Source of the DNA: Alicyclobacillus hesperidum
Lineage (GTDB): Bacteria > Bacillota > Bacilli > Alicyclobacillales > Alicyclobacillaceae
Direction: 5' to 3'
Assembly: GCF_900107035.1 (NCBI RefSeq)
Contig: NZ_FNOJ01000002.1
Location: 1-64,000 of the forward strand
Length of the DNA stretch: 64,000 nucleotides
In this document: positions 6,187 through 60,061 of the stretch, piece after piece
How the letters are laid out: each line of letters opens with the position of its first letter
Position numbering within the stretch: the first letter of the stretch is position 1
Program-made: the position numbers and the translations under genes
Notes under the pieces: model-generated
What the model was told of the DNA's origin: nothing
Databases searched by the model: none
Seen by the model: the letters and a program-made list of their open reading frames with translations, nothing else

Positions 6187-6225
6187 CGATGCTCCTTGTT
6201 GCGAGGCATGGGACAACCGCTCCGA

Positions 6226-6741
6226 TTACGGCGTGGTACATTGTTGCAACAGCGCGTTGCGGCGAACGAGAATTGCTTCGATTTGATCGATTGTGGTCTC
6301 ATCCATCGACTGCATGGCTGTGGCGATCTCACCGTCCACCGCGAGCAGTTCGTAAAGCATCTGTTCGTTGTCCGCCGTGCCATGAAACACGTACTCGTCT
6401 GGTGGAATAGGAGCCGATAAGGCAATCGTCCGCACTTGCTCCACACGGCGAATGTATTGCTCCATCTCTTTCACCGCCGCCAGACCCTCCAAGGGCGGGT
6501 ATGGATTTTCGCGCGTTGGTTCAGGCAACGCCTGGCGAAGTTTTTTCAGATCCTGACGTAGTTGGGCCAAATACTGCCCGAGGGCATTGTCGATCGCGTT
6601 ATGGAGCGCACGGCTGCGCTCACGCAAGCGATACTTCGGATCTTTGACGTTGATAAACCACGCATTCATCCAACCTGTCAGCAGTTCGTTGACCACGCCG
6701 CGCGGCGCTAGGGCGATGCCGTACTTCATCAGATCGCTCAT
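6226..6741 (-). CDS. Uncharacterised helical protein, partner of SPFH protein
   Basis: A 171-residue soluble protein with no signal peptide or membrane helix, predicted largely alpha-helical. It has a K/R/Q-rich amphipathic stretch around residues 40-75 (ALGQYLAQLRQDLKKLRQA) that could form a coiled coil. AAAGGGGATGG lies before the ATG at 6741. It follows the SPFH gene by 21 bases on the same strand, so the two are very probably co-transcribed and may work together. I do not recognise the family and see no catalytic motif. Confidence 0.75.
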   Translation of the reverse strand: MSDLMKYGIALAPRGVVNELLTGWMNAWFINVKDPKYRLRERSRALHNAIDNALGQYLAQLRQDLKKLRQALPEPTRENPYPPLEGLAAVKEMEQYIRRVEQVRTIALSAPIPPDEYVFHGTADNEQMLYELLAVDGEIATAMQSMDETTIDQIEAILVRRNALLQQCTTP

Positions 6742-6762
6742 TCATCCATCCCCTTTGCGGCC

Positions 6763-7596
6763 TTACGACTCATTGCCGAGGAGTTTTGTCACGCGTTGTG
6801 CAGCCACCTGCGGGTTGCCGACAAAGAACGGTTCGCCAATGGCCATGTTCGGTGCCGACACGACGCCTTTGCTTGCCATGATCATCGCCGTATAGTAACG
6901 CACCGCATCGAGTTCAGAGAGGCCAAACGCTCGTAAGGCAATGAGTTCCTTCATGCGCTCGTCCTTCGGGTACACGAGCGCCTTTACATCGTTTAAAGTC
7001 AACCCGTAAACTGACAAAAAATCCTGAAGATGATCTTTCACGAGTTCCAGAATTTCAGGCATCTTTTCGTTCACCCGCTCCAACTCGGTCAGTTGAACGA
7101 TTTTATTAATAGACTGTTCGATCACTGGACCCGCGTACCAATTGACTTCTTTCATGCTGACGTAATGCCCCGCCATCGGCATGTGTTGCACCAGCTTCAA
7201 GGCGTCGTCCTTGGTGTCAACATGCACATAACAGCTTACGTGATAGCCCATTTCCGCCATTTCGCGCGAGTATGCAATTCCAGATACTTCGAGAATCAGT
7301 TTCGCGCGGTTGACATAGATGACCTCGTATTGCCACGGACTATTACCGCCAAAGAACGCCTGTTGAAAGGCTCCGATAATGGGTCGATCCGGCGTTTGAA
7401 TCACATATTGACCCGTGTCGTACACGTTCAAAATAGCGCCGCGCGACTTTAATACGGCGAAGTGATTCGATTCCACGGTGAGCAACGAACCGTTCAAGAT
7501 GTTGTTGTCGGGATAGTGGTACGCCAGAACGTCAGGGCCCATCAATTCCTTTCCATCCTGCGTAAGGGTGCTGATCACTTGGCGAATGGCTGGCAT
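6763..7596 (-). CDS. SPFH (band 7) family protein, virion-core-like
   Basis: A 277-residue protein. Residues about 25-200 match the soluble SPFH type often labelled SPFH domain or virion core protein (B. subtilis YdjI is a distant relative): ILNGSLLTVESNHFAVLKSRG, VYDTGQYVIQTPDRP, then FFGGNSPWQYEVIYVNRAK. Unlike flotillins it has no N-terminal membrane anchor, and unlike YdjI I see no C-terminal zinc ribbon. SPFH proteins form oligomeric scaffolds at membranes. The ATG at 7596 is chosen because GAGGAGG stands directly upstream; 18 in-frame codons before it look non-coding. It is the first gene of a two-gene unit with the unknown 171-residue protein. Confidence 0.82.
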   Translation of the reverse strand: MPAIRQVISTLTQDGKELMGPDVLAYHYPDNNILNGSLLTVESNHFAVLKSRGAILNVYDTGQYVIQTPDRPIIGAFQQAFFGGNSPWQYEVIYVNRAKLILEVSGIAYSREMAEMGYHVSCYVHVDTKDDALKLVQHMPMAGHYVSMKEVNWYAGPVIEQSINKIVQLTELERVNEKMPEILELVKDHLQDFLSVYGLTLNDVKALVYPKDERMKELIALRAFGLSELDAVRYYTAMIMASKGVVSAPNMAIGEPFFVGNPQVAAQRVTKLLGNES

Positions 7597-10458: not shown

Positions 10459-11823
10459 TTAATTCGAACTGTTGCTCGAATTGGACGTCGTGTTATCGGA
10501 ACTCGCAGAGCTATTCGCTGCAACGGCGGTCGATACAGCAGTGTGATCAAGGAACGATACACTGTATTGCGGCGACGCACTGGATGTTGACGAACTTGAA
10601 CTCGAGGAAGAGCTGGAACTACTCGGTGCCGGCAAGGTTAGCGTCACGGTCTTGCCATCGCTGCTGAGCGACACACCCGACACGACAACTGGGATCGAGG
10701 TCGAACCATCCGTCTCAGTTACAATGAACTCGTCAGCCGTTGGTGCGGCGGTAAACGCTTGATCAAACGTGACAACGAGACTGTTGGAGTTTGCCGTCAC
10801 AGACTGGATAGTCGGATCGTTCGCGCCTTGCACATAGACGGTAAACGGCACCTTTGCTTGAAAGCCTTGTCCGTCCGTCGCTTGAATATGTGCGACACCT
10901 GGGGCAACAGCGGTCACGGTACCGTCGCTGGCCACCGTGGCCACAGACGTATTATCCGAGGTGAACGTCAAGCTTGGCATCGGCTTGCATTGGTCGCTCA
11001 CGCCGCTCACCGTAAGGGTCTTGCCAACCTGCAAGGCACCCGATGTCACGCCCGGTGTTCCATCGTTGACCGCCACAACGGGCTCATAACCGAGCACAGC
11101 GTTGCCACCCATATAGGACACACTGTAGTGTGGCACCGGACCTGGTGGTGTGATTTCAGGAATCGTGTATGTTACAGTCTTGCCATCCGAGCTCAATTGT
11201 GCTGCACTTGGGGTCACGGTCGTACCATCGCTGCCGGTGATGCTAATCTCACTGCCTGTTGGAGCAACCGTGAACGAATTCGCAAATTGGACGACAATCT
11301 GTCCGTTGTACGCGTCGACAGCCGTGATGGAATTTGGCGTGTTGATATCAAAAACACGTTGATTCGCGTTCCAACTGCCCGCATTCACTGCGCCGATGAT
11401 CGATTGTAGTACGGTAATAGGGATATACGTGGTTTTATTGTTGGTTGCTGGATCCGCTTCAACTGTGGTTGCCGTTTTCCCCACGACCTGGCCGTTGATG
11501 GAAATGGACGTGTTGCCTGAATCACTCCATTTAGCCGAGGCAACTGCGGATGCGAGATTCGCTGGAAGCTCGAGATCCCATACATGTTTCGCACCATTCC
11601 AGGTCGCCTTGTAACCAAGCTTTGTGAACGCATTGTCAACGTAGAAAACGGGCAAGTAGGTTTGATTGTTGAACGAAAAGGTTTCCGGCTGACTGAGCGT
11701 TTGCCCACCGACAGACACGGTGGCTTGAAACCACGATGGTAACGTCATTGCCATTGTCATGGGGACACCCGTACCAAGAACGACAGATGTTGCCGCCAAT
11801 CCTGCTAAAACTCGCTTGACCAT
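10459..11823 (-). CDS. Exported beta-rich protein with stalk-type N-domain and Big2-like domain
   Basis: A 454-residue exported protein. It has a signal peptide (MVKRVLAGLAATSVVLGTG, cut near residue 25). Residues about 30-170 resemble the copper-amine-oxidase N-terminal/stalk repeat of Firmicute exoproteins (SFNNQTYLPVFYVDNAF; IPITVLQSIIGA). Two similar beta repeats follow, near residues 175-245 and 345-435: each runs I..V.A....VVQFA/VVTFD..FT.APT..E and ends SSDGKTVT. Between them is a Big2-type Ig fold (TSVATVASDGTVTAVAPG). Near residue 400 is a run of twelve serines written with mixed codons. The C-terminus is N/S-rich with no LPXTG. It is probably a cell-surface or secreted matrix protein; no enzyme motif is visible. 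Confidence 0.78.
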   Translation of the reverse strand: MVKRVLAGLAATSVVLGTGVPMTMAMTLPSWFQATVSVGGQTLSQPETFSFNNQTYLPVFYVDNAFTKLGYKATWNGAKHVWDLELPANLASAVASAKWSDSGNTSISINGQVVGKTATTVEADPATNNKTTYIPITVLQSIIGAVNAGSWNANQRVFDINTPNSITAVDAYNGQIVVQFANSFTVAPTGSEISITGSDGTTVTPSAAQLSSDGKTVTYTIPEITPPGPVPHYSVSYMGGNAVLGYEPVVAVNDGTPGVTSGALQVGKTLTVSGVSDQCKPMPSLTFTSDNTSVATVASDGTVTAVAPGVAHIQATDGQGFQAKVPFTVYVQGANDPTIQSVTANSNSLVVTFDQAFTAAPTADEFIVTETDGSTSIPVVVSGVSLSSDGKTVTLTLPAPSSSSSSSSSSSSTSSASPQYSVSFLDHTAVSTAVAANSSASSDNTTSNSSNSSN

Positions 11824-12028
11824 TTGACTTCCCCTCTCTGACTAAAATCCGGGATCTTACTTGGCGCTACGGTTAAGCTGCGTGGTGTAAAAGCGCTATC
11901 ATACCCGTCTTGGAACAGTACGAATATACCAAATTCAACACTAGGCAGAAATGATACGCGAACAACTAAATCGTTTTGGGCAATGGATAGCCTATCCGTA
12001 CAATCGTTTATGCCAATGCGCATTGGTC

Positions 12029-13540
12029 TTACGATTTGACATCGATGACGAGGTGAAATGCAGGCTGTGCTTCCCCTGGATGATCCAGCTTATAAGTCAA
12101 CAAAGGCAGCACGTAGAGATTAGGAACCTTCTGATTACCTTGCTGAATCGTTGGGTAGAGATCGATGTAGTGGATGCCTGGCCCGCCAGTCGCGCGTATA
12201 TGAATTTGCATATCACCGTTTGTGTTAAAGCCGCAGGCATAGCCAATCGAACTGTTGTCGTAGAGCACGCTGTAGCAGTTGTCATAGGTATCCGGACCGC
12301 CACCCTGCAAGTGAATCGTGAAAACTTGACCTGCCTTTACAACCTTCGGTGCAGACACGAGACTTGGATAGATTTGATACGTCGTTGTACCGACGATAGT
12401 TCCCGCTGCATCGACCGCCTCTACGGTGTGTGGCGGCCCGCCCACATTAACGGGCACGGGAATCTTAACGGTAAACGTGCCCGTGCTACTCGTGGTCACA
12501 TGTCCCAGCACCGTCTGGGCTGAGTGGTAGCCAGCCGCTGTTACATGATTCCCAACCGTGTTCGACCATTCAAGCGTCAGTGATTCATTTGCGGGAAGTC
12601 CTTGGCCCGTGAGTGTAAAGGTACTACCGACAATACCATGTCCAGGCGACGCAATGAGGTGGTTCCCTGTGCTGATTGAAGGAGCAGGAATCGAATCCTT
12701 GACATCGACTGGATGTCCCTTTGTAACCGTCACAGGAATCGAAAATGTCGGCTTCCAGCTATAAGGAGATTGCTGTTCATTGAGGTATGGCGAACCAATA
12801 GAGCAGGGAGCAATTTCAATCCAATGGGATCCGATGCCCTCCGCTCGCACCTGGAAGACCGCTGTACCGTTGGTTGTCACAGCTGCGATATTGCCCATCA
12901 AATGATTGTCATACAAGACTTCGTATGCACTTGAATAGGCGCCATAGCCAATGCCTTGTACGCGGATGGTAAAAAAGCCTCCCTCCGACTCCCGCGTGCG
13001 ACTGATTGTGAAAGAAGGTTTAACCGTAACACTGCCTTGCGCCGCGACAATCCCGCTTGCATCCGCCAGCCCGATTTGATGAATATCGCCGTAGCCAGTG
13101 GGTATTCGTAGCACACCATGCACTTGCCCGTTTGCGTCCGCTGTCACTGTCCCCAATACCTTGACAAAAGGCGTAAAGGACTCGCCCACAAAGGTGTTCC
13201 CGTCCACGTCCCATGTCCCTTGGAATGCCTCCCACAGCAACCGATATGTTTGCTTAGGCACGAGCCCAGATGCACTATACGTCACGCGTTCACCGATTGT
13301 TGGATATGTATTGCTGACGTCGATCACAGAAGGCGTTGCGACAGTTTGCCCCAACACATCACTGCCCATCGGGCTCTGCCCACCTGCCTCACTTCCCGCA
13401 CCGGACGAGCTAATTGCGTTTGTATCCGCCGTACTGGAACCCGTCGTATCGGCGGATGCCATACCTCCACCAGCGGCCAAAACCGTTGCGATGATAGCGC
13501 TGCCAATGGCCCAAGATCCAAATCTCCGCGTTCGTTTCAC
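12029..13540 (-). CDS. Exported protein made of two homologous halves
   Basis: A 503-residue exported protein of unknown family. The GTG at 13540 with GGAGG upstream gives a proper signal peptide (VKRTRRFGSWAIGSAIIATV...ASA). After a short S/T/G linker the protein is an internal duplication. Copy A (about residues 65-230) and copy B (about residues 280-470) both contain a first Ig-like domain ending with VLG.VT....G....IP, and a second domain with VLYDN..G and an HWIEI/HYIDL-P motif. Copy B has two cysteines flanking its VLYDN element that copy A lacks. No catalytic residues or wall anchor are seen. It lies next to another exported Ig-like protein on the same strand, but a gap of over 200 bases argues for separate transcription. 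Confidence 0.75.
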   Translation of the reverse strand: MKRTRRFGSWAIGSAIIATVLAAGGGMASADTTGSSTADTNAISSSGAGSEAGGQSPMGSDVLGQTVATPSVIDVSNTYPTIGERVTYSASGLVPKQTYRLLWEAFQGTWDVDGNTFVGESFTPFVKVLGTVTADANGQVHGVLRIPTGYGDIHQIGLADASGIVAAQGSVTVKPSFTISRTRESEGGFFTIRVQGIGYGAYSSAYEVLYDNHLMGNIAAVTTNGTAVFQVRAEGIGSHWIEIAPCSIGSPYLNEQQSPYSWKPTFSIPVTVTKGHPVDVKDSIPAPSISTGNHLIASPGHGIVGSTFTLTGQGLPANESLTLEWSNTVGNHVTAAGYHSAQTVLGHVTTSSTGTFTVKIPVPVNVGGPPHTVEAVDAAGTIVGTTTYQIYPSLVSAPKVVKAGQVFTIHLQGGGPDTYDNCYSVLYDNSSIGYACGFNTNGDMQIHIRATGGPGIHYIDLYPTIQQGNQKVPNLYVLPLLTYKLDHPGEAQPAFHLVIDVKS

Positions 13541-13666
13541 GCACGTTCCTCCACATCGTCGATGATCTGAGCCAACTACAATCAAACGGTGATTGCACTC
13601 GCCCATACCAGACTATTTAGAGAAAAGTGCTGCGATTTCCTGCTGAACACTCCAAGCTAGGAGGCG

Positions 13667-14014
13667 TCATGCGCCCCTTCGCTTGGCCAACAACGCTCGC
13701 AATAAGCGCATTCGGCAATCGGCGTCGAGCCAAGGCAACTCTTCACCGACTTGAGTCAAAATGGCACTCTCATCTTGCAATTCGTAGACCTTGCCCTCCA
13801 TGCGTCCATCTTCGTGCGCATGCTTAAACCACAGGTACCAACGTTCTCCCCTTAATACAAGTCCAGCACTCTCGGATACTGTCCAGAGCAATTCGCCATC
13901 ATGTAACAGCTCGTCCACAGTCTGCTCAAAGTGATTAAACGTGTTTGACAAATCTTCGAGTCGACCAAAGCAATACGCAACCATCGTCTGCTCAACATTT
14001 GCATAGTACTGCAT
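13667..14014 (-). CDS. Small soluble protein of unknown function
   Basis: A 115-residue acidic protein. Start ATG 14014 is chosen because AAGGAG stands eight bases upstream; seven earlier in-frame codons are less likely. The sequence reads as an alpha/beta fold with many aromatic residues (SAGLVLRGERWYLWFKHAHE) and a basic tail (RLLRALLAKRRGA). No signal peptide, membrane helix or known motif is visible. It is separate from its neighbours. Confidence 0.65.
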   Translation of the reverse strand: MQYYANVEQTMVAYCFGRLEDLSNTFNHFEQTVDELLHDGELLWTVSESAGLVLRGERWYLWFKHAHEDGRMEGKVYELQDESAILTQVGEELPWLDADCRMRLLRALLAKRRGA

Positions 14015-14133
14015 AAACCAGACTCCTTGCCTCATCTGCTTTGGGTTGGATACACGTGGTGACCTTGCTAAATAGGATACCCATTCTGTCTCGAAGTTAT
14101 CTTGAATCTCGTTTTAGTCCCATATAACGCAAA

Positions 14134-14163
14134 GGGCGATCCGCGAAAGGTTGCGGATCGCCC
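14134..14163 (-). terminator. Strong hairpin after the CotF-like gene
   Basis: GGGCGATCCGC (14134-14144) and GCGGATCGCCC (14153-14163) form an 11-bp perfect stem; the minus strand continues TTTGCGTT. It lies just beyond the spore coat gene stop. Confidence 0.8.
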
Positions 14164-14184
14164 GTGGCTTTCTTCAACCGATCC

Positions 14185-14778
14185 TCACTGTATGTGTGGT
14201 TGTTGCATGGTTGGCTGTTGTGGCAGTTGATATGACTGAATCATCGTCTGCGTCGTGTTCTGTTGCAATGTAGGCACCTGATAATCGCCTTTTTGGTTCA
14301 TGAATGAGAAAATGTCGTATGCCATGCGATCGCACATGTTCGCGCCCGCCATGAGATAAGCACGGAACTGTGGATTCACACACTCTAGCGCAAAGCTTGT
14401 CCAAGCAGTTGCACCAAATTTATGAAGGTTCAGTGCGACCGTACAAATTGTGCGATCCGATAACGACTGTGCGTTCATATTCGGCGCCGGATGGCTTGGA
14501 TTGCGCAGGCCGAGCTTAGGCTGAACATGCATCGTCGGTTGGTAAGCCAACTGGTTGTTTGCGTTTGCAGATCCCTGCATGATCTGTACGCCCTGCACGT
14601 AGTGTTGTTCAATCATGTGCGCCTGTTGCTGAAGCAGATTGCGCAACTGCATATCTTGGGCTTGTTGGCTTAGAAAGGAAAACATTTCGACGTTGGCTGA
14701 CTTCGTGCTGAGGGCCTCGTGCATGCCGATGATTTCATGTGCACCGTATGGGGCGTTGGGCTGTTGTTGCTGTTGCAT
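14185..14778 (-). CDS. CotF-like spore coat protein
   Basis: A 197-residue protein with the layout of CotF/CotF-like coat proteins: a Q-rich start (MQQQQQPNAPYG), a helical ferritin-like core (residues about 15-75, EIIGMHEALSTKSANVEMF and LRNLLQQQAHMIEQHY), a linker with NPSHPAPNMNAQSLSDR, a second helical pair (residues about 115-170), and a Q-rich tail. CotF-type proteins are made in the mother cell and packed in the spore coat. The ATG at 14778 has GGAGG ten bases upstream; 17 earlier codons are spurious. It supports a spore-forming host. A typical mother-cell promoter was not identified with confidence. Confidence 0.85.
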   Translation of the reverse strand: MQQQQQPNAPYGAHEIIGMHEALSTKSANVEMFSFLSQQAQDMQLRNLLQQQAHMIEQHYVQGVQIMQGSANANNQLAYQPTMHVQPKLGLRNPSHPAPNMNAQSLSDRTICTVALNLHKFGATAWTSFALECVNPQFRAYLMAGANMCDRMAYDIFSFMNQKGDYQVPTLQQNTTQTMIQSYQLPQQPTMQQPHIQ

Positions 14779-18066: not shown

Positions 18067-18085
18067 TTTAACCCGCTCTTGCGTT

Positions 18086-18364
18086 TCAACTCGAAAGCAA
18101 CACGTCTACATATTCTGGATGGCGTTCGAACTGCACCTTGGCATAAGAGCACACCGGCTGAAGCTTTAGTCCTTCGTCGCGAGCCATGTTGACCAGTTCG
18201 CGAATCAACATCGCGGCCACCCCTTGGCCTTGGTAATCAGGTGAAACAACGGTATGGTCGATGGACCAGGCGTGTTCGCCAAGCGGCGAACAGGACACGT
18301 ACCCGACACGCACCCCGTCTTCACGCAATGCATGAACACCATCTTCTACTCGTTTTAGTTCCAT
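18086..18364 (-). CDS. YidJ-type small GNAT acetyltransferase
   Basis: A 92-residue protein of the short GNAT class (Acetyltransf_CG type). The core is IDHTVVSPDYQGQGVAAML, with the Q-G-Q-G acetyl-CoA loop, followed by ARDEGLKLQPVCSYAKVQFE and HPEY, typical of this family. ATG 18364 is chosen for its GGGGGAAGG upstream. Members probably acetylate small molecules or polyamines; none has a firm role. It stands alone. Confidence 0.9.
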   Translation of the reverse strand: MELKRVEDGVHALREDGVRVGYVSCSPLGEHAWSIDHTVVSPDYQGQGVAAMLIRELVNMARDEGLKLQPVCSYAKVQFERHPEYVDVLLSS

Positions 18365-18406
18365 CCGCCTTCCCCCTCGTAGCCGCAAAAAGGCAGTCCT
18401 TGTCGA

Positions 18407-19924
18407 TCACGGCGCTGAATTGCTGATGCCAGACACGTTTTCAGGCTGACCGTCAGAAGGGCTCGTTCCGTTGGCCGTAGAGGTGCCAGTCGCATTGGTT
18501 GCTGTAATATTCCCCGTTCCTGTGCCTGATACCCCATTGCCTGTCGAATTGGTAGTCGAATTGCCAGAACTGCTGGTTGAATTGCCAGTGCCGTTGCCCG
18601 CACTGTTGGACCAACCGGGTATAGACAATCCAGACGGCAATACCAGCGGTATATTTTGGTATGCAATGGTCGCATGTGCGGACATGACAACATCCATGGA
18701 CTGAATGACTTCTGAGACGCGTTTAGCCGAAGCGCCGGTTCCGCCCAAACGGCCGATCACGCTTTTCGGCAAGCGCATGAGCGTATGAACATCTTCAGCC
18801 GTCAACACGGGATTCCCATTCTGTAGCGAGATATGAAGGGTCACACTCGCCACTACTTGTTCCCCTATTTGATGGACAAGTGACTGCGATACGGTTGACG
18901 TATTCAATGCTGTCGACAAAAATCCTTGGATAAACGGCGCGTAGTAATCCTCCGCAACCTGCGATTTCAGTTGCCCGGTGAATACATCTTCACCAACGCC
19001 CTTCTGATATTTTACGTCCTGAAGGGCACCAGTCGTAAACACAGGAATTTGTACATTTTCGGGAGCCATCCAACCAAAGTTTGACTGTTTCGACCAGGTT
19101 CCGGAGCCATCGTTGAAATACACGTCGTCGTGATAGTTGACGTACGTCCACGTTCCGTCGGTCTTCGCCGAGTTGCTCCCTTGCTCACCCTCAACCAAAG
19201 TGGACTGTGCGATAGCGGCACTCTGTCCGTTTGCCGTACCGACATCGTACGTGCTTGTGTAGCGCTCATATTGATTCGCTTCTGATTGTAAAGCCGAAAC
19301 GAGCGACGCATCGGAGCGCCACTTCGGAGCAATTTGAAATTGCAGACGATCAGTCTCGACACAAGTGGTCTGACTGTACAGCGCATTGTCATAGTTGGCC
19401 AACGCGCTCGAGAATTCCTTGCGCTTCGTGCTCGAGAGCGTCCACGAGCCAGGAATCGATGCGATTGAAGAAGCAAAAGCCTTCAACTTCGCAATAAACT
19501 GCTTTCCTTCCGCCAACGTCAAATTCCCTGTGTTACTTGCCATCAACCCTTGCTTCACTGCCCATGTCAGAGGTGGCTGACCCGCGAGATCCATGTGGTA
19601 ATACTTCGCCACGACGCTCGTTGCAAACGCCGCAGAAACTGCATCGGATACACCAAATCTCGTCTTATTGTCCGGGGGCGCCAAACCCAACTCCAAGGAT
19701 TTATGCACATACCCCCACAGTGCGGTTTTGGATGACACGTCCTGAAAGGTTGACTTGCCAGATAAATCTGGTTTTATGTTGACCGATTCTAAAAACATGC
19801 TTAGAAATTGGCCCTTCGTTAAGGCGGTTTGCGCCGACACCGGCTCGGCCATAGCGGCCATCGGCATCGCCACTACAGCGGCCAAGGCCAGCGACGAGTA
19901 AAACTTTTTCGTTGTCTTCGACAT
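18407..19924 (-). CDS. Exported protein with SLH-like N-region and NGT-rich tail
   Basis: A 505-residue exported protein. The signal peptide is MSKTTKKFYSSLALAAVVAM, cut after AMA or VSA (near residue 30). Residues about 32-135 look like degenerate S-layer-homology repeats (LTKGQFLSMFLESVNI; TFQDVSSKTALWGYVHKSLE; GVSDAVSAAFATSVVAKYY). The middle is a large unknown domain. The last 75 residues are low-complexity N, G, T and S repeats, like a surface spacer. ATG 19924 has GGGGG upstream. It probably sits in the cell envelope; no enzyme motif is visible. Confidence 0.75.
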   Translation of the reverse strand: MSKTTKKFYSSLALAAVVAMPMAAMAEPVSAQTALTKGQFLSMFLESVNIKPDLSGKSTFQDVSSKTALWGYVHKSLELGLAPPDNKTRFGVSDAVSAAFATSVVAKYYHMDLAGQPPLTWAVKQGLMASNTGNLTLAEGKQFIAKLKAFASSIASIPGSWTLSSTKRKEFSSALANYDNALYSQTTCVETDRLQFQIAPKWRSDASLVSALQSEANQYERYTSTYDVGTANGQSAAIAQSTLVEGEQGSNSAKTDGTWTYVNYHDDVYFNDGSGTWSKQSNFGWMAPENVQIPVFTTGALQDVKYQKGVGEDVFTGQLKSQVAEDYYAPFIQGFLSTALNTSTVSQSLVHQIGEQVVASVTLHISLQNGNPVLTAEDVHTLMRLPKSVIGRLGGTGASAKRVSEVIQSMDVVMSAHATIAYQNIPLVLPSGLSIPGWSNSAGNGTGNSTSSSGNSTTNSTGNGVSGTGTGNITATNATGTSTANGTSPSDGQPENVSGISNSAP

Positions 19925-53859: not shown

Positions 53860-54056
53860 AACAAAATCCTTTGCTGTACGTTGTCACGCTCTACGTATCC
53901 GCGGCGGTCCTGGTACTCGTGTTCCTACCTGGACTGATCAACGAGGAAGGACATTTCTCTCATTTCGTTCAGCATTTGTTGATTATCGCAGGCGCAGCCA
54001 CATTCGCTTACGCAGCAGAGCGCTTGCGACAACTGGCCGGACAGCGCAAGGCGTGA
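53856..54056 (+). CDS. Tiny two-helix membrane protein B
   Basis: A 66-residue protein with two membrane helices (LLYVVTLYVSAAVLVLVFLP and LLIIAGAATFAYAAERL) and a His-bearing loop EEGHFSHFVQHL between them. GTG 53856 has GAGGTGATATC upstream, inside the end of protein A. The coupling and matched design suggest the two form one complex. The F-V-Q-H-L segment loosely recalls CtaG-type membrane proteins, but the similarity is too short to name. Confidence 0.65.
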   Translation: MKQNPLLYVVTLYVSAAVLVLVFLPGLINEEGHFSHFVQHLLIIAGAATFAYAAERLRQLAGQRKA

Positions 54057-54148
54057 TCGTAAAATACGACGTAGAACAAGAAAAGTACCCCCACAGATAC
54101 GCCTCATCGCGGCGAATGTTATGGTAGCACGCAAATGAGGTGAATTAC

Positions 54149-54859
54149 GTGGCAAGAGGCTTGTTTGTCGCAATGTTTTCGACCGCTGCGGCGCTCGTCG
54201 TCACAGCATACGGATCAAACGTTCTCGCGGCATCGAACCCGGTTCCGCTGCTTACTGCGTACAGCAACGCGATAGACAACGGAACCGGAAACGCGACCAT
54301 GCCATCGCGCCCCTCGTCGAACAAGTCCAACAAGTCGGACATTAACCACATCATCACAGAATTTGAGCAGGCTATCGCACCCTATCAGCACATTCAACCC
54401 AAGAAAATTCCACATCCTGATAAAAACAACGACACGGCACCGGAACTGACATCGCCAAACGACATGGCCTTGGCACTTGAGCAGACACTGAATGCGTATC
54501 AGGCGGCCACGCACAATGACGTGGTGGCACAAGCCCAACTACAAATCGCTGTCAATGCCTATATCGCGGCCTTGCAGGAGGCCGTCTCGACATCCCAGAC
54601 CGTCCTCTTGACCGCACAAGAGCCGCAGTCAACAAACGTGATTTCCTATTTGGAAGATGCACTCGTCAATCAGAATGCAGTAGAAGCCGGAGTGAAAAAT
54701 TTACGGCAGGCTGCAGCCGAAAAAGATTCATCGGCGATACTCTCCATTTTGACAGACATGACCCAAGAGGAAGAACAAAAAGTAGCTGATATTCGAACGG
54801 CGTCGCGTATCTTGGAAAAGTCGACAAGCTCGTTGCTTGCTAAACTGCCAAATAACTAG
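54149..54859 (+). CDS. Exported helical protein of unknown function
   Basis: A 236-residue exported protein. The signal peptide (VARGLFVAMFSTAAALVVTAYG, cut after VLA) starts at GTG 54149, which has GAGGTG upstream. The mature part has a polar P/N/K-rich region (residues about 30-95) and a C-terminal alpha-helical half (residues about 100-236, with MALALEQTLNAYQAATHND and ALQEAVSTSQ). No cysteine, no anchor, no catalytic motif. It lies 92 bases after the two tiny membrane proteins on the same strand, with a terminator behind. Confidence 0.7.
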   Translation: MARGLFVAMFSTAAALVVTAYGSNVLAASNPVPLLTAYSNAIDNGTGNATMPSRPSSNKSNKSDINHIITEFEQAIAPYQHIQPKKIPHPDKNNDTAPELTSPNDMALALEQTLNAYQAATHNDVVAQAQLQIAVNAYIAALQEAVSTSQTVLLTAQEPQSTNVISYLEDALVNQNAVEAGVKNLRQAAAEKDSSAILSILTDMTQEEEQKVADIRTASRILEKSTSSLLAKLPNN

Positions 54860-54941
54860 AACCAGATCCCTTCATGTGTGCGTTGTTTTTACATGAGGCC
54901 TCCCCACAGGGGCATTCCATGATGGGCCGCCTCTCACACAT

Positions 54942-54973
54942 ATGGCCGGATCAGGCCATGGAAGGTCTTTTTT
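54942..54973 (+). terminator. Terminator after the exported helical protein
   Basis: ATGGCC (54942-54947), 6-base loop, GGCCAT (54954-54959), GGAAGGTC, then six T (54968-54973). An upstream TTCCATG can extend the stem with CATGGAA. Confidence 0.75.
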
Positions 54974-55115
54974 GTGTTTGCAACGCATCTAAACATGGCT
55001 AATCGCTCCTCGTCCAAATCTTAGGCGGGATCGTTGGCAGTCTGTCTGATAATAAAGGGCGACACAGAACTATGGGGTGCGTAAACATCGGCAACTACTC
55101 TCCTATAACAAAATG
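54974..55115. other. Intergenic stretch between convergent units
   Basis: This 142-base stretch lies between the terminator of the exported protein and that of nagB. I see no open frame with a ribosome site and no further structure. Confidence 0.6.
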
Positions 55116-55148
55116 CCCGATGCTTGACGACTGGGTTCAAGCATCGGG
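55116..55148 (-). terminator. Terminator after nagB
   Basis: CCCGATGCTTG (55116-55126) and CAAGCATCGGG (55138-55148) form a perfect 11-bp stem with an 11-base loop; the minus strand continues CATTTTGTT. Confidence 0.85.
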
Positions 55149-55176
55149 AGACAGCCTTGTTGATGGATTCCTCAAC

Positions 55177-55902
55177 TTAAAGACCAAGGCGTGCCGCACT
55201 TTGACGATCCAGGATGACCGTAACGTCCTTATGAAGTTGCAATATACTCGCTGGAACATCTGTGCGAATGCCATCTTTCAGTGCTCGGTAGATAATATCA
55301 GCCTTGTGCTCCCCGAACGCCAAAAGCATAATTTGCTTGGCTTGCAGTATGGATTGTATGCCCATCGTAATGGCCTGCCGAGGGACATCCTCCTTTCTGG
55401 AAAAGAATCTTGCATTCATCGCTATCGTTTCAGGTGTTAAGTTGACCACGTGTGTACCCGTGATCAAGGCATGGGAAGGCTCATTAAAACCGATGTGTCC
55501 ATTTACGCCGATCCCGAGTACTTGCATATCGATTGGATGATTCCTTATCACCTCGTTGTATCGTTCACATTCCGCCGCGAGGTCGGGGGCGACTCCATTC
55601 GGTAAATGCGTAGACTGCATGCGAATGCCGATTCTTGAGAACAAATGCTCATCCATAAACTGGTGATAACTTTGCGGATGGTCAGGTGCGAGACCGACAT
55701 ACTCGTCGAGGTTTATCGTCGTCACATGAGAAACGTTCAGCCCGCAACGAACGAAATTGACCAATGCATCATAAACCGGAATGACAGTCTCGCCTGTTGC
55801 CAGACCGATGACCGGTCGCTCCGAAGACGTAATAACCCTTTCAAGCATTGAAGCAGCGTAAATGCCAGCATCGGAAGGCGTGCGAAATACGCGAATGTTC
55901 AT
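55177..55902 (-). CDS. nagB: Glucosamine-6-phosphate deaminase
   Basis: A 241-residue deaminase turning glucosamine 6-phosphate into fructose 6-phosphate and ammonia. Motifs: IGLATGETVIPVYDAL (phosphate loop), TINLDEYVGL with the catalytic Asp, and GIGVNGHIGFNEP with the catalytic His and Glu, then FFSRKEDVPRQAITMGI. The length matches B. subtilis NagB. GGAGAGG precedes ATG 55902. It is the last gene of the ROK-permease-nagB operon. There is no nagA, so the operon handles a sugar that reaches glucosamine 6-phosphate without this locus deacetylating it, or nagA is elsewhere. Confidence 0.96.
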   Translation of the reverse strand: MNIRVFRTPSDAGIYAASMLERVITSSERPVIGLATGETVIPVYDALVNFVRCGLNVSHVTTINLDEYVGLAPDHPQSYHQFMDEHLFSRIGIRMQSTHLPNGVAPDLAAECERYNEVIRNHPIDMQVLGIGVNGHIGFNEPSHALITGTHVVNLTPETIAMNARFFSRKEDVPRQAITMGIQSILQAKQIMLLAFGEHKADIIYRALKDGIRTDVPASILQLHKDVTVILDRQSAARLGL

Positions 55903-55948
55903 AACCTCTCCACCATCCTTCAGGTCTTCTCCGACGTTGCCTGTCTAT

Positions 55949-57352
55949 CTAATCCACAGAGAGCTGTTCAACCGACTCCATATGTTGTACCAAATATGCT
56001 TCTTGAATAACCTTTTGACCAAACGGCCATTCTCGCTTCCGGTAGGCCCATACCAAAAAGGCAATAATACCCAAGGCCGTCCACACAATCGCCAAACGAA
56101 TCGCTGCCCAACCTGAAGAATAAAACACATACGCCCACCCGACGAAGGCAAGAATGCTCGGAATGGGATAGAGCCACTGACGGAACGGGCGTTTCAGATT
56201 CGGTTGTCGCTTTCTAAGGATTGTGAGGGCGACAATCTGTCCCATGAATTGAATGACAATCGCCATCGCCATGAGTGCGTTAATGATTTCTGTCAAATTG
56301 AAGAAACAACAAATCGCCATGATCACGCCCATGACAAGCAGGCCGACATAGGGAAACTTGAGCCTTGGATGCAGGTTCGCAAACGATTTAAAAAACAGGC
56401 CGTCACGTGCCGCGTTATACGGAAGTCTGGAAGCCCCTAGAAGCCCCGTGTACACCGATGCAAAACAAGTCCATATGATGAGCAGGGTAATCACGATGGC
56501 GCCAGGACGGCCCCATACACTTTCAACCAACTGAGTGCCAATATCTGTGCTTTTCATCGCCGCTTGCCATGGTATATTTCCAATCATTCCAATGTTCATA
56601 CACAGATATATAATAGCCACGAATAGAATAGATAATAAGATTGCACGCGGAATCGTTTTACCCGGATTCGAAACTTCGTCGCCAAGGTATGAAGCTGTAT
56701 AGTACCCCATGTAATCGTAGATAGAAATGAGCATGCCACTTCCGAGCCCAAGTAAAAATTTTGAAGGCGCGAAAGCGTTAGGTGGAAACGAAAAAGCTAG
56801 GTGTGCGTTAAAATGTATGGAAGCCGCCACAATCACCATGACTACTGTTAAGATAGCACCGATCCATAATACGGTTGTCAGCCTTGCAATAGATGTGATC
56901 CTTCTCCACAAAAGCACCATCGTGATGATGGTGACAAGCACGGCAACCAACTTCGATTCCAAACCCGTCATATGCGGAAAGAAATAAGCCAAATACTGCG
57001 TCAAGCCAATCGCACCAGTAGACATAATGAGAGGGGTGACAATCAGTGTTGACCAGACGAAGAGGAATGGCATAAGTTTTCCCGTCCGATACTGGAACGC
57101 CTCTCGCAAATACACATAAGTTCCGCCTTCGCCCGGCATCGCAGCACCCAACTCACTCCAAACCAATCCATCGAGGGCGGCCAAAAGCGCGCCAACCATC
57201 CATCCAAAAATGGCTTGCGGCCCACCCATGGCTGACAAAATGATGGGTACGGTAATGAATGGACCAGCCCCCATCATCTGCGACATATTTGTAGCGGTGG
57301 CTTGGAACAGCCCGATGCCACGCTCCAACCGTTGTCCTTCCTGAAGTGCCAT
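55949..57352 (-). CDS. APC superfamily permease in amino-sugar operon
   Basis: A 467-residue protein with 12 predicted membrane helices and typical APC features: ATATNMSQMMGAGPFITVP in helix 1 and SELGAAMPGEGGTYVYLREA after helix 2, then DYMGYYTASYLGDEVSNPGK in helix 6. The usual APC substrates are amino acids and amines. Its place between a ROK sugar regulator and nagB makes an amino sugar or a related amine the likely substrate (inference). ATG 57352 has GAGGTGA eight bases upstream; 31 earlier codons are spurious. Confidence 0.9.
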   Translation of the reverse strand: MALQEGQRLERGIGLFQATATNMSQMMGAGPFITVPIILSAMGGPQAIFGWMVGALLAALDGLVWSELGAAMPGEGGTYVYLREAFQYRTGKLMPFLFVWSTLIVTPLIMSTGAIGLTQYLAYFFPHMTGLESKLVAVLVTIITMVLLWRRITSIARLTTVLWIGAILTVVMVIVAASIHFNAHLAFSFPPNAFAPSKFLLGLGSGMLISIYDYMGYYTASYLGDEVSNPGKTIPRAILLSILFVAIIYLCMNIGMIGNIPWQAAMKSTDIGTQLVESVWGRPGAIVITLLIIWTCFASVYTGLLGASRLPYNAARDGLFFKSFANLHPRLKFPYVGLLVMGVIMAICCFFNLTEIINALMAMAIVIQFMGQIVALTILRKRQPNLKRPFRQWLYPIPSILAFVGWAYVFYSSGWAAIRLAIVWTALGIIAFLVWAYRKREWPFGQKVIQEAYLVQHMESVEQLSVD

Positions 57353-57383
57353 GCTATGTTCACCTCGCGAGAAAGAGTTCATA

Positions 57384-58550
57384 TTAGATTCTGTACATCT
57401 CCATAATTGGGCTTGCCGCAGCTCCATACGCACCTGCCAATTCACCCAACTGGGCCAATGTTAAACGCGCTCGTATCGGCATGATTTGCTTCAAACGCTG
57501 ATCAATTTGCTTAAGGAGTGTATCCCCAACCCGCATCACGCCTCCCCCTAAAATGATTTTCGCAGGGTTTACTAGGGCAACCATATGAGCCAAAGCAAAG
57601 GCTAAATATTTGACTGTCCTATCCACCACATATTGGCCCAATTCATCGCCATGTCGTGCGGCTTCAAACACTTCCTCAGTGCGAATCTCTCTGCCCTGAA
57701 GCATTGATTGAGGAAATAGATTCATATTTGCTTTGGCCTCTAATCGAATTCCAGTACCCGATGCTACGTTCTCGAGCGGTCCAAATCGGGTCACATCACT
57801 TTGTGCATCCGTAAACGGATCAACTGGAGCATATCCGACCTCACCCGCATATCCTGCCGAGCCACGGTGAATTTGGCCACCAATCATAAGTGCAGCCCCA
57901 ATGCCAGTACCAATGGCGACAAAAATGACGTCCTCATCGTCCCCACCAGATCCAACCCATTTTTCTCCAACGAGTGCCATGTTTACATCGTTGTCTACAA
58001 TAATTGGACCCGGCAGATATGAATGGAAGGCCTCTCGCAAATTGACGTTTATCCAATTCAACCCTGGTGCAGCGATGACCGTGCCATCCTCATAATTGAT
58101 AAGCCCTGGTGCACCAATTCCGGATCCGACAATTTTATCTTTCGGAACGCCAGACTCCTGGAGAAACATTTGCGCTTGCCTGCGCAAATGCTCGACAATA
58201 CTAGCCCCGTCGCGATGCGATGCTATCTTTCGATGCGCGATGACGGTTCCAGCGAGATCCGTTAACATCAATATCGTCTTTGTTCCGCCTATATCCATTC
58301 CAAATGAGTATCGTGCCGTTGGGACGAACTTCAGTCGAACAGAAGGGCGCCCGCCTTTGGATGTTGATCTTCCCGTCCCAACTTCACGCACAAAACCATC
58401 CGTAAGTAGGGAGTCGACGATCTCGGAGACAACCGATCGACTTAGACCTAAGCGTTTCGCGATGTCAGCTCTGGAAATGGGCTGATGCAGTCTCACCTCC
58501 CTTAAAACGTTTGCACGATTCAGGTTGCGCACGACGGTCCCCATACGCAC
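57384..58550 (-). CDS. ROK family transcriptional regulator
   Basis: A 388-residue ROK regulator (NagC/XylR class). The N-terminal winged helix (residues about 10-70) has QPISRADIAKRLGLSRSVVS. The sugar-binding domain has MDIGGTKT, GIGAPGLINYEDGTV, IIVDNDVNMALVGEKW and FVAIGTGIGAALM. The usual ROK zinc signature (C-x-C-G-x-x-G-C-x-E) is not there; that place reads TDAQSDVTRFGPLENVAS. GTG 58550 suits AGGGAG upstream; ATG 58544 is close. It has its own promoter, a perfect operator-like repeat and cre sites, so it probably represses itself and the two downstream genes. Confidence 0.92.
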   Translation of the reverse strand: MRMGTVVRNLNRANVLREVRLHQPISRADIAKRLGLSRSVVSEIVDSLLTDGFVREVGTGRSTSKGGRPSVRLKFVPTARYSFGMDIGGTKTILMLTDLAGTVIAHRKIASHRDGASIVEHLRRQAQMFLQESGVPKDKIVGSGIGAPGLINYEDGTVIAAPGLNWINVNLREAFHSYLPGPIIVDNDVNMALVGEKWVGSGGDDEDVIFVAIGTGIGAALMIGGQIHRGSAGYAGEVGYAPVDPFTDAQSDVTRFGPLENVASGTGIRLEAKANMNLFPQSMLQGREIRTEEVFEAARHGDELGQYVVDRTVKYLAFALAHMVALVNPAKIILGGGVMRVGDTLLKQIDQRLKQIMPIRARLTLAQLGELAGAYGAAASPIMEMYRI

Positions 58551-58569
58551 TTCTGCACACTCCCTAGCA

Positions 58570-58598
58570 GGTTTGTTTGCTCTAATACCAAACAAACC
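58570..58598 (-). promoter_or_regulatory. Perfect inverted-repeat operator of the ROK operon
   Basis: GGTTTGTTTG (58570-58579), nine bases, CAAACAAACC (58589-58598): a perfect 10-bp inverted repeat 12 bases downstream of the -10. It resembles the GTTTGTTT/AACAAAC half-sites of XylR-type ROK operators. Bound protein would block the start of transcription. Confidence 0.85.
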
Positions 58599-58610
58599 TC
58601 TTTTGCAGGC

Positions 58611-58639
58611 ATTATATATCGAAACAACACAACTGTAAA
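58611..58639 (-). promoter_or_regulatory. Sigma-A promoter of the ROK-APC-nagB operon
   Basis: On the minus strand TTTACA (58634-58639), 17 bases, TATAAT (58611-58616). One mismatch to consensus in total. Confidence 0.88.
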
Positions 58640-58681
58640 CGCATTCACACGGAGCCAATTGCGAGTCTGTAAACGTACCGA
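58634..58681. promoter_or_regulatory. Two cre-like sites at the ROK operon promoter
   Basis: TGTAAACGCATTCA (58634-58647) fits the CcpA consensus TGNAANCGNWNNCW fully and covers the -35. TGTAAACGTACCGA (58668-58681) fits with one mismatch. Their starts are 34 bases apart. Catabolite repression by CcpA is inferred. Confidence 0.7.
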
Positions 58682-58792
58682 CTGCGAGTTTCCTTATCAA
58701 TTCGGTTTTGCGCACGGTCGCATCAGAACATATCCCAACCCCAATGACCCAAACTTGGGAAAGCACAGGATTTCTTGATCAAAGACACACAC

Positions 58793-58827
58793 AAAAAAAG
58801 ACTCATCAGCATACTGCCGATGAGTCT
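58793..58827 (-). terminator. Terminator downstream of cysK
   Basis: On the minus strand AGACTCATC, an 11-base loop, GATGAGTCT, then a run of T opposite seven A (58793-58799). It lies about 170 bases past the cysK stop. Confidence 0.85.
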
Positions 58828-58998
58828 GCCCGCAGACCGGGAAATTCGGGTTTAGGTACAGTGTAGAACAGTTCGTCTACACTACACCATGTAGTATACT
58901 GGCCCTTCATGCCGGATACATGAGTCCTGAGACCTATCTTTTGCGAAAAAAATTCTCCCTTACGCAATGCCCTTCCGCCCGCCAGGCCAACCAAGCAC
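58828..58998 (-). other. Long 3' region of cysK with inverted repeat and tiny frame
   Basis: This stretch between the cysK stop and its terminator holds an 8-bp inverted repeat AGTGTAGA (58860-58867) / TCTACACT (58876-58883). A 34-codon minus-strand frame runs from ATG 58910 to a stop inside the terminator stem; it has no good ribosome site and is not called as a gene. Confidence 0.4.
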
Positions 58999-59922
58999 CT
59001 ACATCTGGTATAAATCCGATGATAGATAGCGCTCTCCAGTGTCAGGCGCCAAGCAGAGTACTCGTGCATCCTTCGGCAGTTTGCTGGCAATTTGCAAACC
59101 ATGAAACACAGAAGCCGCCCCCGATGCACCAAGCAAAATACCTTCTTCTGCAGCCAAGCGCCGTGCCGTGTTTTGTGCTTCTTTGTCTTCGATCAGCAGA
59201 ATTTCATCGAAAGCCTTGCGATTCAAGATGCTTGGAACAAAGCCTGGGCCGGTGCCAGGAATTTTATGCGGCCCTGGTTGCCCGCCCGACAACACGGGAG
59301 ACCCTTTGGGCTCGACGACATAAATTTTGAGGCCTGGGATCCTTTTCTTTAATTCTTCACCCGTGCCCGTAACGGTGCCTCCCGTGCCTGCCGTCAGCAC
59401 GAAAGCGTCGAGCTTACCCTCAAAATCCTCATAAATTTCAACCGCCGTCGTGCCACGATGGGCGTCTGGGTTGGCCGGATTATCGAACTGTTGGGCAATA
59501 AAGCTGTGCGGAATACTTGCCGCCAGTTGTTCAGCCTCTTTAATGGCTCCTGTCATGCGCTGGCCTTCTGGTGTGAGGTACACCTCTGCCCCGTAGGCCT
59601 TTAGCAACTTGACACGCTCCTCGGTGGCGTTCTCCGGCATTGTGATGATACAGCGATACCCTCTGGCAGCACAAACCATCGCCAAGCCGATACCGGTGTT
59701 CCCCGATGTCGCTTCAATCACGGTGCTCTTGCCCGGAATCAGCTTACCCTCTTTCTCGGCTTGCAGAATCATGTTTAAAGCAGGCCGATCCTTTACGCTA
59801 CCGGCTGGATTTTTCCCTTCTAATTTCACGTAAACCTGTGCACCATTCGGATCTGGAAGTCGGTTAAGGCGAACTGTGGGCGTATGGCCGACGAGTTCGA
59901 GAATCGAGTTGTACAATGGCAT
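58999..59922 (-). CDS. cysK: Cysteine synthase A
   Basis: A 307-residue PLP enzyme making cysteine from O-acetylserine and sulfide. Motifs: LEGKNPAGSVKDRPAL with PLP lysine Lys44, EATSGNTGIGLAMVCA, the phosphate cup TAGTGGTVTGTGEELK, and GERYLSSDLY at the end. AAGGAG precedes ATG 59922. It is monocistronic, with TATACT as a possible -10 in the upstream region. Confidence 0.97.
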   Translation of the reverse strand: MPLYNSILELVGHTPTVRLNRLPDPNGAQVYVKLEGKNPAGSVKDRPALNMILQAEKEGKLIPGKSTVIEATSGNTGIGLAMVCAARGYRCIITMPENATEERVKLLKAYGAEVYLTPEGQRMTGAIKEAEQLAASIPHSFIAQQFDNPANPDAHRGTTAVEIYEDFEGKLDAFVLTAGTGGTVTGTGEELKKRIPGLKIYVVEPKGSPVLSGGQPGPHKIPGTGPGFVPSILNRKAFDEILLIEDKEAQNTARRLAAEEGILLGASGAASVFHGLQIASKLPKDARVLCLAPDTGERYLSSDLYQM

Positions 59923-60061
59923 GGCATTTACTCCTTATTCTCGTTGAGCTAAGTGCTTTGACCCAGCACAGCACTGAGCATCACCAAAATGAATTCAACT
60001 CTTATAGTATAACTCGGAAAAAGTGAAATTTCAGTCGTGGCCTCAGCCGAACCCGTTTCCT

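Follow-up and report, generated by a model that had tools for sequence, protein, structure and literature searches.

What does a permease of an amino-acid transporter family carry when its gene stands next to one for an amino-sugar-phosphate deaminase? The question is raised by a locus in the window, a stretch of 64,000 nucleotides from contig NZ_FNOJ01000002.1 of Alicyclobacillus hesperidum, where three intact minus-strand open reading frames (ORFs) form one tight unit. A ROK-family regulator with a helix-turn-helix domain (HTH-ROK) is followed by an APC-family permease and by nagB, and the intergenic gaps measure 31 bp (regulator/permease) and 46 bp (permease/nagB). The original prediction, made from the DNA alone, had described this unit as an amino-sugar operon without nagA, a phosphotransferase system (PTS) component, or a sugar kinase, and the ORFs and the Pfam and NCBIfam scores confirm it: model searches recovered no nagA, PTS component, or stand-alone sugar kinase within the operon locus, whose genes encode ROK, APC, and NagB proteins. 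Comparison with related genomes suggests that the APC permease probably imports an amino sugar. The operon would then be an inducible unit for amino-sugar uptake and catabolism. The HTH-ROK protein would repress it from a palindrome lying between promoter and start codon, and a free amino sugar would enter through the permease, in A. hesperidum most likely glucosamine and in relatives with a longer gene set galactosamine. Phosphorylation would fall to a ROK-family kinase, which could be the regulator or a glucokinase encoded on another contig (C30), and NagB would convert glucosamine-6-phosphate to fructose-6-phosphate and ammonia.

Permease loci and their importers in related genomes

Relatives were taken from a set of 121 genomes, A. 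hesperidum included, in which permease orthologs were defined by at least 68% identity. Sixteen such orthologs occur in 14 of these genomes, the nearest named one (98% identical) in A. tengchongensis. When 398 genomes were drawn from the phylum, the only ortholog at 1e-90 was that of A. hesperidum itself. All 16 permease loci have a ROK protein with intact kinase motifs, which is fused to an HTH domain in nine (the window-type regulator) and free in seven (a separate ROK kinase without HTH); no locus has both. The original prediction had suggested a search for a conserved ROK-APC-nagB order, and this order is kept in part: the window-type regulator lies directly upstream of the permease in 9 of the 16 loci, and the full trio is found in five of these nine (the window, A. 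tengchongensis, A. sacchari, A. suci, and genome G012). Within the genus, nagB is present in each of the nine genomes that have the permease and in none of the six that lack it, a count in which related genomes are not independent.

The seven other permease loci combine the ROK kinase without HTH with an AgaR-like repressor, a SIS protein, a class II aldolase, and a PfkB kinase; models were run on one locus (L033), and the gene families of the remaining loci were assigned by similarity. For the SIS protein of L033, the best-scoring models were those of the GlmS C-terminal domain, GlmD, and AgaS, and it reached the cut-off of none of them. Its aldolase exceeded the cut-offs of two tagatose-bisphosphate aldolase subfamilies and stayed under that of the equivalog, the PfkB protein was over the 1-PFK subfamily cut-off and under the 1-PFK and LacC equivalogs, and the repressor was under the AgaR cut-off (214 vs 260). 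A nagB about 60% identical to that of the window is present in three of these seven loci. The second copy in A. fastidiosus and its counterpart in genome G003 have the same separate-kinase gene set in a looser arrangement. In the A. fastidiosus copy (L023), two ORFs (11735-12546) make up the split PfkB gene that adjoins the APC gene, a further PfkB-like gene is located at 18081-19016, and an IS110-type transposase lies upstream (5938-7071).

The separate kinase, here called c3, also occurs where the permease does not. At E 1e-45, it was detected in 11 loci in 10 of the 121 genomes, and seven of these are the permease loci. The other four (a second locus of G003, and one each in G018, G050, and G016) encode a solute-binding protein and two ATP-binding cassette (ABC) permeases together with SIS, aldolase, and PfkB proteins, and no APC gene is present in the 14-19 kb read around them. 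Likewise, the seven permease stretches with a separate kinase contain no matches to these ABC proteins. Pfam supports the ABC genes of G050 and, in G003, that of the binding protein; those of G018 and G016 were recognised by similarity, the latter at 27-39% identity. In G015, moreover, a sister of the window regulator heads the gene order ROK-ABC-nagB-nagB. Because two importer types, APC and ABC, thus fill one slot, the APC protein would import the sugar of the pathway, and this is the strongest evidence for amino-sugar uptake.

Two further observations concern the ABC gene sets. The sister HTH-ROK genes that head ABC-nagB sets in G015 and G003 (L213 and L214) encode intact kinase motifs, and a separate kinase was not recognised there either. 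The ABC gene set of G050 (L220) includes a sulfatase (PF00884, SGSH_C; 13174-14688), a hint of sulfated amino sugars.

Substrate of the permease

Further permease homologs also stand beside ROK proteins. Sporolactobacillus encodes an HTH-ROK protein, the APC permease (72% identity), and a ROK kinase (37% to c3), and two Embleya megaplasmids carry a divergent HTH-ROK gene, the APC gene (51%), and a kinase gene whose product shares 40-41% identity with c3. In a plasmid collection of 72,556 records only six permease homologs reach 1e-35, a clear clade boundary in that collection.

Several points weigh against the import of an amino sugar. No nagB-like gene lies within 6.5 kb in four of the nine loci with a window-type regulator (A. 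acidiphilus, A. fastidiosus copy 1, G003 copy 1, and G001), and the permease is absent from 13 of the 25 nagB-bearing genomes among 37 searched for nagB. In Sphingomonas and Novosphingobium, the APC homolog (40%) is accompanied by a PfkB kinase, a GH4 protein, a TonB receptor, and an RpiR regulator; with partners such as PfkB and GH4, the permease clade may extend beyond amino-sugar carriers. For the homologs in Hydrogenedentes, a planctomycete (3.4 kb contig), Gemmatirosa, and a Streptomyces plasmid, a ROK neighbour was not detected. In addition, the relatives with solved structures that were found by sequence are amino-acid or amine carriers. Finally, the A. hesperidum genome itself has a nagA, which leaves room for an N-acetylated sugar, and the search for PTS components left the mannose family aside.

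Regarding the sphingomonad megaplasmids (L088 and L089), the context of the permease homolog looks as if it carried a glycoside, and the L088 region also has Qat defence genes.

The solved relatives speak for an alternative in which the permease would carry an amino acid or amine, for example one freed together with amino sugars in cell-wall turnover, and would only be co-regulated with nagB. The protein passes the Pfam model AA_permease_2 but no NCBIfam cut-off, and the NCBIfam models that match it best, far below cut-off, describe subfamilies of amino-acid transporters. Its AlphaFold2 model (pLDDT 69.9, pTM 0.74), which is weak at residues 215-230 and for which no binding-site geometry is claimed, matches SLC7A10 best (Z 38.3, root-mean-square deviation 3.0, 423 residues aligned). 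The first 20 structural matches are APC-family amino-acid transporters, and KimA and NKCC1 rank lower, as befits an APC (LeuT-type) fold. The permease shares this fold with LAT, xCT, BasC, and the bacterial CAT-type transporters. In contrast to xCT and the CAT homologue 5oqt, however, which have the residues G-I-F and an alanine aligned with D213, the permease clade has G-P-F and Y-D-Y, and G30-P31-F32 and Y212-D213-Y214 are invariant in 21 permease homologs. D213, which we take to be part of helix TM6 in keeping with the alignments, was considered as a charge that binds the amine; this argument is weakened by the sphingomonad homologs, whose partners do not look specific for amino sugars and which keep D213. 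Against an amino acid or amine as the substrate stand the invariant D213, the pairing with a kinase, and the filling of the same slot by ABC importers whose binding proteins are of SBP_bac_1 type; furthermore, no amino-acid enzyme was found among the L033 neighbours tested. Altogether, transport of an amino acid or amine appears quite improbable.

A second alternative takes its starting point from nagA. In the A. hesperidum assembly (2.86 Mb, 98.98% complete), the window nagB is the sole match at E 0.001, and one nagA, on contig C18, exceeds its cut-off. The permease might carry N-acetylglucosamine or another N-acetylated or neutral sugar, with deacetylation by the product of this nagA on another contig. 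In line with this alternative, nagA lies near the APC gene in G001, where the regulator-permease pair is flanked by a nagA-PTS operon and by an ABC/BadF-kinase/GH4 operon (assignments from similarity and visual inspection), and A. tolerans and G034 have nagA-like genes that miss the cut-off narrowly or clearly. However, the stretches from Ferroacidibacillus and G053 contain no nagA match, and the operator core described below was not found at the A. hesperidum nagA. An N-acetylated or neutral substrate is thus unlikely. None of the operon's gene types was found by similarity beside the C18 nagA. Two PTS EIIC (PF02378) matches in the genome are over the Pfam cut-off though weak (3.3e-19 and 1.7e-18, the mannose family aside), compared with about 1e-57 to 1e-58 for the EIICs adjoining nagA in five related genomes of the genus. 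The near relative G005 has a nagA match (L065) that is truncated where contig C54 ends; ORFs upstream of it look transposase-like by eye.

An amino sugar imported by the APC permease thus remains the preferred explanation. The original prediction of a different entry route for glucosamine or a related amine gains from the pairing of the orthologs with a ROK kinase and amino-sugar-phosphate enzymes and from the exchange for ABC importers, and the sugar carried may be glucosamine, galactosamine, or an N-acetylated form. For A. hesperidum, the presence of NagB and the failure to find an AgaS-type protein favour glucosamine. A galactosamine route through AgaS was rejected for this genome: the sole AgaS-type SIS match at E 1e-20 is an ORF of 611 aa, which is GlmS by its size. 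The closest solved structure of NagB is 2ri0 (E 1.1e-61), and the protein is below the cut-offs of the narrower PRK00443 models. Its assignment as the galactosamine-6-phosphate isomerase AgaI was rejected (NF007291, 148 vs 271 bits).

The kinase step and control of the operon

The original prediction had also held that a kinase elsewhere must act on a free amino sugar. A glucokinase encoded elsewhere could still fill this role, but the necessity is open to question, as the regulator itself keeps the motifs of a kinase. The ROK kinase motifs (D-GGT, catalytic Asp, and GTG) are intact in all nine window-type regulators, down to about 52% identity, and in the 10 dedicated ROK kinases examined, and the window regulator has an intact GGG motif as well. 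We presume that the phosphate-1, catalytic Asp, and phosphate-2 motifs have their usual roles in ROK kinases. The zinc motif, which we take to consist of a His and CxCGxxGC and to have its customary role, is absent from the window regulator (GEVGY, no Cys) and also from the 10 dedicated kinases; regulators and dedicated kinases alike have Tyr in place of the zinc-motif His. Among the other HTH-ROK proteins of 25 genomes, that of A. hesperidum included, 6 of 76 retain the kinase motifs. Since the motifs are intact in nine of nine window-type regulators, compared with this small share, the regulator may be the missing kinase. It might then be a bifunctional repressor and amino-sugar kinase that senses and phosphorylates the sugar imported by the permease, a tentative proposal that, judged from sequence, we hold to be rather doubtful. 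If it were correct, all 16 permeases would travel with a working ROK kinase, HTH-fused in one lineage (nine loci) and free in the other (seven).

We lean somewhat towards the alternative that the housekeeping ROK glucokinase C30 alone phosphorylates the sugar and that the HTH-ROK protein is a plain repressor, whose motifs would be kept for a sugar-sensing fold. This alternative touches the kinase step only and is compatible with amino-sugar import by the permease. The genome encodes four ROK proteins, only one of which, C30, is without HTH; it barely exceeds the cut-off of the ROK glucokinase model TIGR00744 (260.7 vs 260.35), which the window regulator fails to reach (199.6 bits). Phylogeny agrees with a plain repressor insofar as regulators and dedicated kinases fall in separate clades, the free kinases with support of 100/100. 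The nine motif-keeping regulators represent one lineage, supported by 88/86 among all rows, and group with five other HTH-ROK proteins (100/99 for all 14). Because three of these five sisters keep all motifs, and thus make up half of the six motif-keeping proteins mentioned above, motif retention is partly a trait of the wider clade. On the other side, retention in nine of nine regulators despite their divergence is not readily reconciled with a plain repressor, and two HTH partners accompanied by a dedicated kinase have broken motifs: the HTH-ROK proteins of Sporolactobacillus and Embleya L085, both with a separate kinase, have lost the phosphate-1 motif. A BadF-type kinase was also considered, but its sole match in the genome stays under the cut-off and falls within the ROK kinase C30 (kinase families beyond ROK and BadF were not searched). 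The regulator was rejected as NagC (equivalog NF047937, 170.9 vs 650 bits).

Upstream of the regulator, a promoter-like site is followed by an operator-like palindrome located before the start codon (Table 1). Translation would begin at a GTG at 58550 or an in-frame ATG at 58544; the originally predicted end at 58550 fits the GTG. Taken as a set, promoter-like sites in this region are not above expectation (7 vs 5.5 +- 2.5 in shuffles). Upstream regions were compared for 10 HTH-ROK genes (the window, L018, L019, L020, L021, L022, L026, L029, L030, and L032). TTTACA and a TATAAT-like hexamer are seen in nine of them, Sporolactobacillus being the exception, and the core of the palindrome in all 10, perfect in six and with one base changed in four. 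The exact core, GTTTGTTTG-N9-CAAACAAAC, occurs a single time in the A. hesperidum genome, and the site is one of just two perfect 9-9-9 palindromes in the 64 kb. No palindrome of this kind lies upstream of four more distant sister-clade HTH-ROK genes (L213-L216). From these patterns we infer that the HTH-ROK protein would autorepress the operon from the predicted operator.

Table 1. Features of the ROK-APC-nagB operon and its flanks in the window
Feature	Position	Strand	Evidence
HTH-ROK regulator with intact kinase motifs	57384..58550	-	Pfam ROK 187.3 bits; MarR_2 HTH 31.5 bits (cut-off 27)
APC-family permease, 467 aa	55949..57352	-	Pfam AA_permease_2 159.5 bits (cut-off 27)
nagB, glucosamine-6-phosphate deaminase, 241 aa	55177..55902	-	TIGR00502 245.3 bits (cut-off 236.9)
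Sigma-70-like promoter, TTTACA-N17-TATAAT	58611..58639	-	11/12 consensus bases
Operator-like palindrome, 11-bp arms, 9-nt spacer	58569..58599	.	Core GTTTGTTTG-N9-CAAACAAAC at 58571-58597
Inverted repeat, possible terminator (weak)	55119..55145	-	Perfect 9-9-9 palindrome directly 3' of nagB; absent from predicted-terminator list

The ATG of the permease is preceded by AGGTGA, as read from the sequence, and an Rfam search of 54000-60000 gave no match at gathering score. Next to the operon, the window encodes a predicted protein of 239 aa (54140-54859) without a Pfam or NCBIfam match at E 0.001; A. tengchongensis and A. sacchari conserve it close to the operon as well.

Relation to known systems

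Among the matches listed in the literature, which comprised titles and abstract openings and few subscription papers, there was no APC-family amino-sugar carrier and no HTH-ROK repressor doubling as a kinase. If the proposed substrate is correct, the permease clade would consist of sugar carriers inside the amino-acid permease family, a sugar-carrying addition to a transporter family whose members are read as amino-acid permeases, and annotations as amino-acid permeases could be wrong in several phyla. Since related loci hold either a motif-intact regulator or a separate kinase, it can also be tested whether a ROK repressor serves as the kinase of its own pathway.

Within the APC family, FrlA (NCBIfam NF008466) is tied by its name to a sugar-amine pathway. 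The fructoselysine (Frl) system was nevertheless rejected: the window permease is far under the FrlA cut-off (105.8 vs 800 bits), and the SIS and PfkB proteins of L033 do not resemble FrlB and FrlD (21.9 and 33.2 bits, far below cut-off). The pathway for oxidised amino sugars (ong) was rejected too, since its importer is an SSS protein (PMC9537276). The aga/gam system of Escherichia coli has steps that resemble the long gene set of the relatives, namely an AgaS-type deaminase, tagatose-6-phosphate kinase, and tagatose-bisphosphate aldolase, but takes up its substrates by a PTS, and A. hesperidum is without an AgaS-type SIS protein (PMC3668189, PMC12118421). Similar in design are the NagP/NagK and AgaP/AgaK routes of Shewanella, Xanthomonas, and Stenotrophomonas, in which the sugar likewise enters through a non-PTS permease and is then handled by a sugar kinase in the cytoplasm and by nag/aga enzymes (PMC2996990, PMC13055268, PMC12118421). 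Their permeases are named as GGP or MFS proteins, or as MurT-like NagF, whereas the window permease belongs to the APC family and its operon has no separate kinase. A permease-plus-kinase route is thus already known, and the variation here would be the APC-family importer.

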